Below, in pieces: positions 165 through 36,288 of a DNA stretch of 64,000 nt (position 1 is its first letter; the number at the start of each line of letters is the position of its first letter). The stretch lies in NCBI GenBank assembly GCA_022013685.1, contig JAKLPV010000027.1, forward strand, positions 1-64,000. The letters are read 5' to 3'. Origin of the DNA: Anaerolineae bacterium (GTDB taxonomy: Bacteria > Chloroflexota > Anaerolineae > Anaerolineales > Villigracilaceae). A model generated the notes under the pieces. It saw only the letters and a program-made list of their open reading frames with translations, was not told the origin of the DNA and ran no database searches. Both the position numbers and the translations under genes were made by a program.

Positions 165-214
165 GCCCTTCGACTGTGCTCCTCGTTGTCACTCGTCGCT
201 CCGCTCAGGGCTTG
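165..214. repeat. Dispersed repeat, copy 1 (gcccttcgac ... ccgctcagggc)
   Basis: This copy begins gcccttcgac and ends ccgctcagggcttg. Two more copies lie at 637-671 and 1733-1769. It overlaps the 3' end of the minus-strand glycosyltransferase gene: the stop codon of that gene is the TGA inside CCCTGAGCGG, the complement of the repeat end. The rest of 1-164 holds no recognisable gene, apart from a short gtcgag-cctgtc-gagac inverted word near 48-64. Confidence 0.7.
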
Positions 215-1725
215 TTGACCTGATAGATCGTAAAACGCTGGTTTTTGAAGGCGATCTGCAATTCGACATTCGGGTTGCAGGTTTTTATTTCGCCGGGGTC
301 GATCTGGCCGTTGCGTTCCTGTTTTTCGTGCATGACAATGAAATCCCCTTCACCGATGCGGGCGCAGTCTTCGATCAGGATGGTGTAGCGGTCGGTCAGC
401 AACTTCATCAGGCGCGGCTTGAAGAAGATGATGGTGCTGTCGGCTGCGGTTTGTTCGCGGACGTAGACGAACATCTCGGCGCTGACGGGGTCGAACGGCC
501 CGTTGATCTCTTCGCGGCTGAAGAGCCTGCCGCCTGCGCGCTGAAAGCTGACCACGAGCGAGAGCAGGGCCAGTGTGCCGAGTAGCGCAGTGGGGAGTAT
601 CTGGTGTTCAGTATCCAGTATCCAGTTTTCAGTCGGCAAGCCCTGAGCGGAACGCAGTGAAGTCGAAGGGCGGTGTTCAGTTTTTCGGGGACGAATACGG
701 TGAAAAAGGTCTTGCAAGCCATGTGCGGCGAAAATCAGAAAAAAAGGCAGGATGGGATAGATAAAGCGCAGCCCCTGGCGTTCGGGCCAGGTGATGAAGA
801 TCGCCATCGTCAGCAGGGAAAAAGTCAGGGCGGGCATTTCGGCGCGGGCTTTTTGGGAGATGCCCCACAGGCAGGCCAGCCCCGTCAGCGCAAGGAAAAG
901 TGTCGAGAGGGGCAAGCCGTTGAAGAGCCAGCCGGGCAGGGTCAGGTAGAAGAGAAAATTGTCAAAAAGACGGGCCGGGCTGAAGAACAGTTCGTAGTGC
1001 TCAAAGTAGGAGCTCTGCCCGCCGGGGAAAAGGATCAGGCTTAGGCCGAAGAGCGCCAAAAACGTCAGGTAGGGCAGGCTGATTAAACGGAATCCTGGCT
1101 GAGGGTTGGAACGCCGCTGCAAAAAATCGACCAGCGCGAGAGGCCCGAGCAACAGAATCCCGTTGGTGCGCAGGAAAAAGCTCCCAAAAATCAAAATTCC
1201 AAGCGCTATTTTTTGCCAGGCGAGTGAGCGGCCGGTGCGCCACTGGATGTCGAGCAAAAACAGGCTGGCGGTGGTGGCCAGCAGAAAAGCAAAGTCGGCC
1301 TGGATCAGGTCTTGGGCTTTGAGCAGGCTGGGGTTGAAGGCAAGCACGGATACGAGGGCGGCGCTCAACGGCAAGTTGAAGCGCTGGCGGGCGTAGGCGT
1401 AGAAAACAGCCAGGAAAGCGACGAAGGCGACCGTGTTGACCAGTTTGAAGGCGGTGATGCTCAGGCCTGCCAGGGCGTAGATGGGAGCCAGCATGAGCGG
1501 GAAGCCCCACGGATAGGCGGCCGGGCCGACCGGGTAGGTCGATTGGGCGATGGCGCGTCCGTTTTCGGCGACGAATTCGGCCATGCGGCCATCGAGGATG
1601 GCGCGGGCTTGCAGGATGTAGGAGGCGAAATCGTCCCACCAGAATTGGCCGGTGCTAAAGAGAGAGATGCTCATTATGCCCGCGATGAGCATGATGAGGG
1701 CGATGGTGGCGATGTCTTTTTTCAT
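205..1725 (-). CDS. Multi-pass membrane glycosyltransferase (GT-C, PMT/ArnT-like)
   Basis: The 506-residue protein has many hydrophobic helices from residue 8 to about 400 and a short soluble tail. An early WWDDF motif (about residues 29-33) follows the first helix, the position where GT-C enzymes of the PMT/GT39 type carry their catalytic Asp. Such enzymes move sugars from polyprenyl-phosphate donors to lipid or protein on the outer face of the membrane; the substrate here is unknown. Residues about 345-375 (HRPSTSLRSAQGLP and flanks) are a repeat-encoded insertion that reads through in frame between two hydrophobic segments. The stop codon lies inside another copy of the same repeat, so the natural C-terminus may have been altered. 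The family assignment rests on topology and one motif. Confidence 0.6.
   Translation of the reverse strand: MKKDIATIALIMLIAGIMSISLFSTGQFWWDDFASYILQARAILDGRMAEFVAENGRAIAQSTYPVGPAAYPWGFPLMLAPIYALAGLSITAFKLVNTVAFVAFLAVFYAYARQRFNLPLSAALVSVLAFNPSLLKAQDLIQADFAFLLATTASLFLLDIQWRTGRSLAWQKIALGILIFGSFFLRTNGILLLGPLALVDFLQRRSNPQPGFRLISLPYLTFLALFGLSLILFPGGQSSYFEHYELFFSPARLFDNFLFYLTLPGWLFNGLPLSTLFLALTGLACLWGISQKARAEMPALTFSLLTMAIFITWPERQGLRFIYPILPFFLIFAAHGLQDLFHRIRPRKTEHRPSTSLRSAQGLPTENWILDTEHQILPTALLGTLALLSLVVSFQRAGGRLFSREEINGPFDPVSAEMFVYVREQTAADSTIIFFKPRLMKLLTDRYTILIEDCARIGEGDFIVMHEKQERNGQIDPGEIKTCNPNVELQIAFKNQRFTIYQVNKP
637..671. repeat. Dispersed repeat, copy 2, inside a coding region
   Basis: This inverted-orientation copy (caagccctgagcgg ... 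gtcgaagggc) lies within the glycosyltransferase gene and stays in frame, encoding PSTSLRSAQGLP. The adjacent bases 603-636 are a second low-complexity word (cagtatccagtatccag) and ggtgttcag occurs on both sides (near 603 and 672), so about 80 bp look inserted in an exposed loop. Confidence 0.7.
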
Positions 1726-1732
1726 GGGGAAG

Positions 1733-1769
1733 GCCCTTCGACTTCGGGCTGCGCCCTCCGCTCAGGGCA
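1733..1769. repeat. Dispersed repeat, copy 3
   Basis: It begins gcccttcgac and ends ctccgctcagggcat. It lies between the glycosyltransferase start and the histidine kinase end and supplies the TGA stop of the kinase (CCCTGAGCGG on the minus strand), as copy 1 does for the glycosyltransferase. Confidence 0.7.
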
Positions 1770-3015
1770 TGGAGAGGGTTGATGTTCCGGCGGGCGGCAG
1801 CAATATCTGAATGGTTGCGCCTTTGCCCGGGCCTTCGCTTTCGGCCCAGATGCGCCCACCCTGGGTTTCGATCAGGCCTTTGGCGATGGTCAGGCCGATG
1901 CCCAACCCGCCAAATTTGCGGGTGTTGTGCGGCTCGACCTGGTAGAATTCCTGGAAGATTTTCACCAGTTGGTCCGGGGCGATGCCGATGCCGTTGTCGC
2001 TGATCGAGACCTGGATGTTACCGCGCTGTTGGCGGGCGCTGATGGTAATTTGGCCTCCGGGCGGAGTGAAGCGCACGGCGTTGTTGAGGATGTTGACAAA
2101 AGCCGGGGCCAATTTTTCAGGGTCGGCGGTAACAAGTAAAGTTTGGGCTGGCAGGTCAAACGTGACGAGGTGGCGCATTTCTTCGGCGATCTGGCGCATT
2201 TCGGCGTAGGCGGCGTTGAGCACCTGTTGAACGGGAACGACGCGCGGTTTGAAAGTCAGTCCCTTGGCTTGCAGCAATTGCAGGCTGGTCATGGCTTCAA
2301 TGACGGAGCGCATCTGGCTGGCGGCGGCCAGCACCCGTTCGGCGTGATCAGAGACTTCCCCGGCTTCTTCTTGCAGGAAGGATGCGTAACCGATGATGAT
2401 CCCCAGCGGGGTGCGCAATTCGTGTGAGGCCAGCGCCAGGAAGTTGCTTTTGAGGCGGTCGGTTTCACTGATGTTTTCGTAAGCGCTTTGCAGGGCCTGG
2501 ATCAGGCGCGCATTGTGAATGGCGATCGCGGCCTGGGCGGCCAGGGCGGAGAGCAGCTTTTCATCTGCGGGGCCAAAGTCGCCGTTGCGTTTGTTGAGGG
2601 CTTCCAGCACGCCAACCCCTTTGTCGCGGATGCGCATCGGAACCCCAAGCAGGGATTTTGGTTTGAAATCAACCTGTTGCGACACCGAGCGAAAGTGACG
2701 CGGGTCTTGCTCGACATCGTTGATCAGGATGGCTTTGTCTTCGCGGAAGATTGTCCCGGCCAGGCTGCCGTCGATCGGGACGGGGATTTTGGCAATTTCC
2801 CCCGGGTCTGATCCGCTGGATGCGGCAAAAAATAAGCGGTTGCGTTTTTCATCATACAGCAAGATGGAGGCGGCTTCACATCCCAGGATGTCGGTCGCGG
2901 CAGTGATCAGGGAGTCGAGTAATTCATCCAGGTTAAGGGTGGAGTTAAGCGTCAGGCTGACTTCCATCAGGCGGGCAAGTTGTTTGGCTTCCAGGCTGGG
3001 GGGCATCTTAATCAT
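1762..3015 (-). CDS. GAF-domain sensor histidine kinase
   Basis: This 417-residue kinase has no membrane segment and is probably cytoplasmic. An N-terminal GAF domain spans about residues 12-172 (ACEAASILLYDE-like core, then SLLGVPMRIRDKGVGVLEALN). A HisKA dimerisation domain follows with the phospho-acceptor H198 in SHELRTPLG. The HATPase domain has the N box NILNNAVRFTP (308-318), the G1 box DNGIGI (340-345) and the G2 box GGLGIGL (369-375). It would autophosphorylate in response to a ligand bound by GAF and pass phosphate to a response regulator, which is not encoded nearby, so it is an orphan kinase. Its final residues come from a dispersed repeat. Confidence 0.9.
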   Translation of the reverse strand: MIKMPPSLEAKQLARLMEVSLTLNSTLNLDELLDSLITAATDILGCEAASILLYDEKRNRLFFAASSGSDPGEIAKIPVPIDGSLAGTIFREDKAILINDVEQDPRHFRSVSQQVDFKPKSLLGVPMRIRDKGVGVLEALNKRNGDFGPADEKLLSALAAQAAIAIHNARLIQALQSAYENISETDRLKSNFLALASHELRTPLGIIIGYASFLQEEAGEVSDHAERVLAAASQMRSVIEAMTSLQLLQAKGLTFKPRVVPVQQVLNAAYAEMRQIAEEMRHLVTFDLPAQTLLVTADPEKLAPAFVNILNNAVRFTPPGGQITISARQQRGNIQVSISDNGIGIAPDQLVKIFQEFYQVEPHNTRKFGGLGIGLTIAKGLIETQGGRIWAESEGPGKGATIQILLPPAGTSTLSMP

Positions 3016-36190: not shown

Positions 36191-36288
36191 GGTCGAGTAG
36201 CCGCGCAGCGGCATACCGAGACCTGAATTGAACAGCAAGCGCATCCGGGTCTCGATACGTTCCTCGTTTCGCTCGGAACTACTCGACC
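36191..36288. repeat. 98-bp compound inverted repeat (GGTCGAGTAG ends)
   Basis: It starts GGTCGAGTAG (36191-36200) and ends CTACTCGACC (36279-36288). Inside, accgagacct and gggtctcgata also face each other, so each half is a GGTCGAGTAG ... gtatcgagacc unit and the two units point inward. A 12-mer of it recurs near 10169. It resembles REP/BIME-type intergenic elements. Confidence 0.75.

Follow-up and report, generated by a model that had tools for sequence, protein, structure and literature searches.

Near one end of the 64,000 nucleotides considered here (the window: positions 1 to 64,000 of contig JAKLPV010000027.1, from an Anaerolineae bacterium), a short repeat supplies the stop codons of two genes and is translated within one of them. 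What kind of element is this, what has it done to the proteins that it touches, and what enzyme might have spread it? The repeat belongs to the REP/REPIN family and is a small, mobile-looking hairpin element, called here REP-A. That REPs may supply stop codons and may lie within genes is already in print, as passages of a 2013 paper report (PMC3733652); what is new is the partner enzyme. Judging from the genes that adjoin it, REP-A probably has as its dedicated partner and mobilizer not a RAYT (HUH tyrosine transposase) but an endonuclease, a small one of the GIY-YIG type.

Three copies of a repeat and the two genes that they end

The repeat, CCCTGAGC..GTCGAAGGG, is present in three copies (Table 1), at the places where an earlier reading, made from the letters of the window alone (the sequence-only reading), had put them. 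The same reading had noticed that two copies provide, in the same context, the TGA stops of a glycosyltransferase and a histidine kinase, and that the third is translated within the glycosyltransferase. These observations are confirmed. Both genes take their stop from the TGA of CCCTGAGCGG. The third copy contains no stop in the frame of its gene, where it reads ..RPSTSLRSAQGLP... The copy that ends the kinase gene spans the gap between it and the next gene.

Table 1. Positions of the REP copies, the genes that they touch and related features (window coordinates unless another contig is given)
Feature	Position	Strand	Remarks
REP copy 1	166-210	-	tag CAAG, 211-214; TGA at 205-207 ends the glycosyltransferase
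REP copy 2	641-670	+	tag CAAG at 637-640; within the glycosyltransferase gene, antisense to it and open in its frame
REP copy 3	1734-1767	-	variant tag CATG at 1768-1771; its TGA (1762-1764) is the histidine kinase stop
Membrane glycosyltransferase gene	205-1725	-	506 aa; Pfam Glyco_transf_22, PF03901
GAF/HisKA/HATPase histidine kinase gene	1762-3015	-	417 aa
Family-B palindrome copy	36248-36288	-	same kind as the flanks of clade-II gene L202
L031	250-1896 (G000:C20)		548-aa protein with C-terminal Y1 transposase-like domain

The interpretation built on these observations, that the element shapes C-termini and adds a peptide linker, appears as a whole to be mostly wrong and only partly supported. 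Relatives free of the repeat end almost alike. Just before the stop, the kinase reads ..TSTLSMP here and ..TSTLSMPA, ..TSTLSLPA and ..TSTLSMPA in three such relatives; the glycosyltransferase reads ..YQVNKP here and ..YQVLP, ..YQVTGGK and ..YKILR in relatives. Given such similar ends in proteins without the repeat, the insertion exchanged one stop for another at almost the same place. The linker, in turn, is real: a stretch of 25 residues at the in-gene copy is missing from three relatives of the glycosyltransferase that were found by protein (L102, L103 and L104, the last with further gaps around the insert). Relatives with the same ends and linker and no repeat had been named in advance as what would count against the interpretation, and such relatives exist for the ends and not for the linker. 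The REP itself accounts for no more than about 11 of these 25 residues, the remainder coming from another short repeat that adjoins REP copy 2.

Short repeats of the type CAGTATCCAGTATCCAGT directly adjoin many REP copies (window 601-640, L003, L013, L019, L020, L038 and L046), and the one at window 601-640 contributes residues to the glycosyltransferase insert.

A list of all genes in the genome that end in the repeat, proposed in the same reading, turns out to have entries, though few: 4 of 102 REP-class copies end a predicted gene with their TGA, two of the four being those of this window, and at 2 more of the 102 a gene terminates inside the element by another stop.

Number, anatomy and folding of REP-A

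About 102 copies of REP-A are found in the genome (5.28 Mb). Matches to the strict pattern CCCTGAGCN{3,30}GTCGAAGGG number 57, against none for the reversed control, and those to a looser pattern 178, against 5, so the family is not a product of chance. The number of copies was reached by a script that began with 137 matches, kept 131 after removing nested ones, and subtracted 17 copies of a longer MITE-like repeat and 12 bare 16-mers, leaving 102 of the REP class. Flanks were taken from the places listed in two pattern searches (60 and 75 matches).

The consensus is CAAG-YC CTGAGCGGAG - tip - YAGTCGAAG GRC, which as a single strand would form a hairpin; its foot (CAAG-YCCTGAGCGGAG ... YAGTCGAAGGRC) is conserved, and its tip varies freely yet remains self-complementary. 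Of the 102 copies, 48 carry the tag CAAG; next come CAGG (7), CAGT (4), AGCG (4) and TAAG (4). Outer pairs of the stem covary: one is C-G in 52 copies, T-A in 29 and T-G in 14, and another is C-G in 87, G-C in 8 and T-A in 3. As for the tip, the mean fold energy is -6.5 with its own 3' half, -3.96 with the 3' half of another copy and -2.85 with shuffled letters. In 20 of the 81 unique tips, the share of foreign halves that fold equally well is below 5% (median fraction 0.14). The folding energies of single copies are weak (z of -1.2, -2.2 and +0.25 as RNA in the orientation of the REP, and not significant as DNA), so the structure of REP-A rests on covariation. RNAfold leaves the GA that follows CCCT unpaired opposite another GA, and presumably the two could form tandem G.A pairs.

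REP-A occurs both singly and in tail-to-tail pairs. An inverted partner lies on the tail side of 44 of the 102 copies, most commonly with a spacer of 23 nt. An imperfect palindrome of 20-40 nt, in many copies, for the most part between genes and often shortly after them, and in inverted pairs, is what one expects of the broad REP/REPIN class, and REP-A agrees on each count. The unpaired tag of either superfamily, GTAG or CGTC, is not that of REP-A, CAAG being the commonest among its 102 copies.

The longer repeat with 17 copies includes the REP foot (CTGAGCGGAGGGCGAAGCGTATTTTGCGCAGCCC..), with GACGCTCCGCTCA after it and conserved sequence to either side, and is a MITE-like derivative (L034, L037, L062, L063, L096, L099 and others).

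Recent gain of the copies

All three sites in the window are empty in relatives, a gain specific to this lineage. Relative G001 has a kinase 95% identical to the one here, and its glycosyltransferase and kinase sites are both empty; the cross-genome comparison counts 42 strict copies of REP-A here and 2 in G001. Not every copy is young: a short in-gene copy or run (L021) is common to this genome and G001. At the orthologous sites compared, divergence of the intergenic DNA hides any target-site duplication and the precise points of insertion.

GIY-YIG nuclease genes between palindromes

One GIY-YIG gene of this genome, L203 (locus L091/L203), sits between several copies of REP-A. Its stop is the REP's own TGA, the protein ending in ..DSKP. 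The protein matches Pfam PF01541 (E 5.9e-18), and its nearest solved chains are 1zg2 and 1ywl; across six aligned proteins, the Y, Y, G, R, H and E columns are invariant. We take its conserved Tyr, Arg and Glu to be the characteristic residues of GIY-YIG nucleases. The entire REP-nuclease-REP block, about 785 bp, is absent from the same site in G001, where there is no REP.

A second gene, L202 (clade II, see below), lies between palindromes of a different family, B (GGTCGAGTA..TATCGAGACC), and a third, L204, between palindromes of a family C (GTCATTTCGA..GAGAAATC). The remaining GIY-YIG matches in this genome are a fourth, cut by a contig end, and a fifth of UvrC length. The window itself holds a pair of family-B palindromes, at 36192-36288 (GGTCGAGTAG..ACCGAGACC and GGTCTCGATACG..CTACTCGACC).

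The habit of ending on the hairpin is not confined to L203. The TGA of a REP-A hairpin is the gene's own stop in 6 of 19 nuclease genes labelled A (those beside REP-A) and in 1 of 94 others, and in L203, L244 and L265 the stop stands in the context CCC TGA GCG, as it does at the genes of the window.

Match of nuclease clade to palindrome in Chloroflexota

From a PF01541 search of 41 genomes, 72 small GIY-YIG genes were collected; frames as long as UvrC, the gene truncated at a contig end and some matches that were weak or fragmentary were set aside. Protein motifs divide them into clades I (32 genes, housekeeping-like), II (10), III (8, L203 and L244 having been placed there by hand) and IV+ (22). 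In sequence comparisons, the association of these genes with REPs is clear, as is the match of clade to palindrome. REP-A lies within 250 nt of all 8 genes of clade III, and family B within 250 nt of all 10 of clade II by a pattern broadened once the flanks had been inspected (the first pattern gives 6 of 10). Among the 22 genes of clade IV+, 16 have GTCAT-type palindromes, 2 have REP-A-like ones and 4 have none detected by script. No palindrome was seen beside clade I by the first patterns, and a looser script found GTCAT in 6 of 32. In 297 control pairs of windows at least 500 nt away, the counts were 12 for REP-A, 1 for B and 24 for GTCAT.

Palindrome labels were set in part after inspection of the flanks, and only the REP-A test in new genomes used a pattern fixed beforehand. 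For that test, a draw of 400 Chloroflexota genomes was screened with this genome's nuclease protein as the query. Its nearest homologues outside the 41 genomes (L297, L298 and L300-L305) have REP-A-type palindromes in 8 cases out of 8. Five clade-II homologues in the new genomes carry half sites of type B.

A second test is independent of the choice of pattern and asks only whether the two flanks of a gene have in common an exact match of at least 12 nt. They do for 36 of 57 non-housekeeping genes, 1 of 32 housekeeping genes (clade I) and 3 of 242 control pairs; by group, the counts are 8 of 10 for clade II, 6 of 7 for clade III (L273 being too short), 10 of 22 for clade IV+ and 12 of 18 for the plasmid genes described below. 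It was used in place of a best-inverted-repeat score, since that score sets nuclease flanks only partly apart from controls and is raised also in the housekeeping clade (at least 12 in 14 of 32 versus 5 of 32 controls).

A tree of the proteins is consistent with the match. The four palindrome labels require 17 changes on it, compared with a mean of 57.1 when labels are shuffled, and none of 200 shuffles came as low; kinship alone would cluster the labels to some extent. Label B occupies one side of a branch (support 75), and A requires 4 changes. The tree was made by a quick method from 113 proteins and 99 columns, and with few starred branches it leaves many forks open.

Carriers of a clade-III gene also tend to be carriers of REP-A: strict copies are found in 7 of 8 genomes with the gene and in 8 of 33 without it (Fisher p 0.0018; with this genome set aside, 6 of 7 carriers, p 0.0044), the mean number of copies being 11.6 and 1.1, respectively. 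The rule is not absolute. Carrier G013 has no match to the strict pattern, and the non-carriers G027, G029 and G011 have 9, 8 and 7 copies. Since 8 of 33 non-carriers still hold REP-A, either the clade-III gene is not required or it has been lost from them.

One clade-II gene, at L227:1494 (G001:C34), has TAG at codon 3 and is flanked by family B; it is probably a decaying copy.

GIY-YIG genes and REPs on plasmids and in other phyla

With a clade IV+ protein as the query, 36 records were found in a plasmid collection, and 18 of these were taken. By eye, palindromes within about 200 nt lie on one or both sides of the nuclease gene in Photobacterium, Azospirillum, Planktothrix, Aeromonas, Neisseria, Neorhizobium and Rhizobium CIAT894, and likewise in Sinorhizobium (two), three Shinella, Sphingobium, Novosphingobium and Spirosoma. 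In R. tumorigenes the palindrome is weak by eye, and in Acidiphilium and Variovorax none was found beside the nuclease by script or by eye. The script assigned a label to 13 of the 18 plasmid genes and none to 5.

Many of the plasmid palindromes are of the CGTC type, and related nucleases adjoin CGTC-type and similar REPs on plasmids of three other phyla. CGTC REPs (Di Nocera et al. 2013; they include dRS3 and RPE-4/6) differ from REP-A in sequence and tag, but their palindromes (GTCATTCCCGCG..CGGGAATCC and variants) resemble it in adjoining GIY-YIG genes. In a passage of PMC3733652 they are said to "apparently lack a dedicated transposase."

Whole cassettes can be recognized here as well. A REP-nuclease-REP cassette lies between sufB and sufC in Shinella PSBB067 (an unannotated record, whose suf genes were named by similarity to annotated ones) and in Azospirillum lipoferum 4B, and none lies there in Sinorhizobium, A. 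oryzae or A. thermophilum. In the Azospirillum cassette, complete REP pairs flank the nuclease gene on both sides.

In the open-access literature, preprints excluded, no paper was found that links GIY-YIG nucleases with repetitive extragenic palindromic elements, and the sequence of the REP motif led, among the matches listed, to unrelated papers only.

How a GIY-YIG nuclease might spread REPs

From the neighborhoods described above, we infer that the nuclease recognizes the folded foot of its cognate hairpin and mobilizes it. It would nick beside the foot, and REP units and REP-nuclease cassettes would in consequence be copied to new places. Copies that survive would be mostly those a short way downstream of stop codons. 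The foot carries a TGA in the context CCC TGA GCG, so that a copy landing in a gene's final codons can replace the stop of that gene with little change to the protein; in the opposite orientation, the copy within the glycosyltransferase is open and is tolerated in frame. The effect on stop codons would then be a by-product of the TGA in the hairpin foot, the same TGA that ends some of the nuclease genes.

If such nucleases do mobilize REPs, then REP-type elements had at least two origins, served by different enzymes. The balance tips slightly toward a wider proposal: that many of the bacterial REPs lacking a RAYT (CGTC-type, CAAG-type and others) constitute a second, independent kind of REP system, in which small GIY-YIG nucleases are the drivers and every clade has a cognate hairpin of its own. 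It would extend to Chloroflexota, Pseudomonadota, cyanobacteria and Bacteroidota at the least. A GIY-YIG partner would answer the question of what spreads such repeats in bacteria, and many proteins annotated as "GIY-YIG nuclease family protein" would gain a role. A nuclease of an unrelated fold, found between REPs in several phyla and matched clade by clade to palindromes, is in any case a testable candidate.

The main alternative reverses the roles of passenger and driver. GIY-YIG proteins include homing endonucleases, and perhaps the genes seen here are passengers of that type, cutting and landing in REPs that something else has spread. The specificity of clade for palindrome would fit such passengers as well. 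Insertion sequences that target REPs have been described, moreover, in a passage of PMC1525189. A homing gene sits inside its own recognition site, which an empty site would still hold; at the G001 site the whole REP-nuclease-REP block is missing and no REP is there, the one case from this genome. The sites of relatives without the whole cassette, three cases in all, lean against homing. Also, the Azospirillum gene stands between complete REP pairs, not within one split pair, and the Y1 transposases of this genome offer no other candidate mobilizer. Homing passengers seem an unlikely account, if the strongest of the competitors. The partner nuclease does have its domain in common with GIY-YIG homing endonucleases and UPF0213 proteins (PDB 1zg2, 1ywl); it is a protein of about 100 aa with its own palindromes on one or both sides, whereas the first patterns show none beside genes of the UPF0213-like housekeeping clade.

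Search for a RAYT

The GIY-YIG nuclease, as the preferred partner of REP-A, would occupy the place that a RAYT (TnpA-REP) occupies with GTAG REPs. Those elements, as described in parts of PMC3733652, are like REP-A in being short imperfect palindromes with an unpaired tag of 4 nt, in forming inverted pairs, in lying between genes and near stop codons, and in having a partner enzyme encoded between their copies. REP-A differs from them in its tag (CAAG, not GTAG), in a tip that varies freely while self-complementary, and in its probable partner, a GIY-YIG nuclease with no RAYT adjoining.

Neither a Pfam family search nor a RAYT protein query found an intact RAYT in this genome, nor was there a RAYT with HUH and catalytic Tyr next to the repeat, as in a RAYT-REPtron. 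The one match to Pfam Y1_Tnp (PF01797) is L031, possibly a domesticated transposase. It was rejected as the mobilizer: no HUH motif is evident by eye, the residues appearing to be lost, and most of the 41 genomes, whether or not they have REPs and however many, contain Y1_Tnp matches in frames of comparable length. A RAYT was rejected as the partner of REP-A on the grounds of its absence here by both searches and of the different flanks of RAYT-like genes in relatives.

Perhaps an ordinary RAYT spread REP-A and later disappeared from the genome, or its gene is absent only from the assembly, which consists of 239 contigs with 5.33% contamination. Relatives do have RAYT-like genes. Their Y1-domain loci (9 read with flanks, 14 scanned), however, have no REP-A hairpin adjoining, the sole match to the pattern lying more than 2 kb away, and G000-G003 hold only the long Y1-like protein. 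A vanished RAYT is improbable, more so than homing passengers.

Placement of REP-A behind stop codons

With genes predicted by a simple hexamer gene caller, 75 of the 102 copies are intergenic, 21 are inside a predicted gene and the remaining 6 end one. Intergenic copies with both neighbours known and the head toward a stop codon number 39. Of these, 24 lie 5-17 nt from the stop, compared with 9.75 expected, 8 of them at exactly 12 nt, and in 100000 simulations of uniform placement in the same gaps, 24 was never reached. One might suppose from these 24 copies, and from E. coli, where a passage of PMC12306157 reports that REPs within 15 nt of a stop affect translation, that the element is kept for a role in RNA, its hairpin slowing ribosomes behind the stop or protecting the 3' end, but this would explain the sites of survival (and so is compatible with spread by a nuclease), not the origin of copies or their adjacency to nuclease genes, and as a rival account it is very improbable. 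Runs of REP-like units (..CCCTGAGCGAAGTCGAAGGGAGTGGAGTCGAAGGG..) occur inside predicted genes at L079, L080 and L021.
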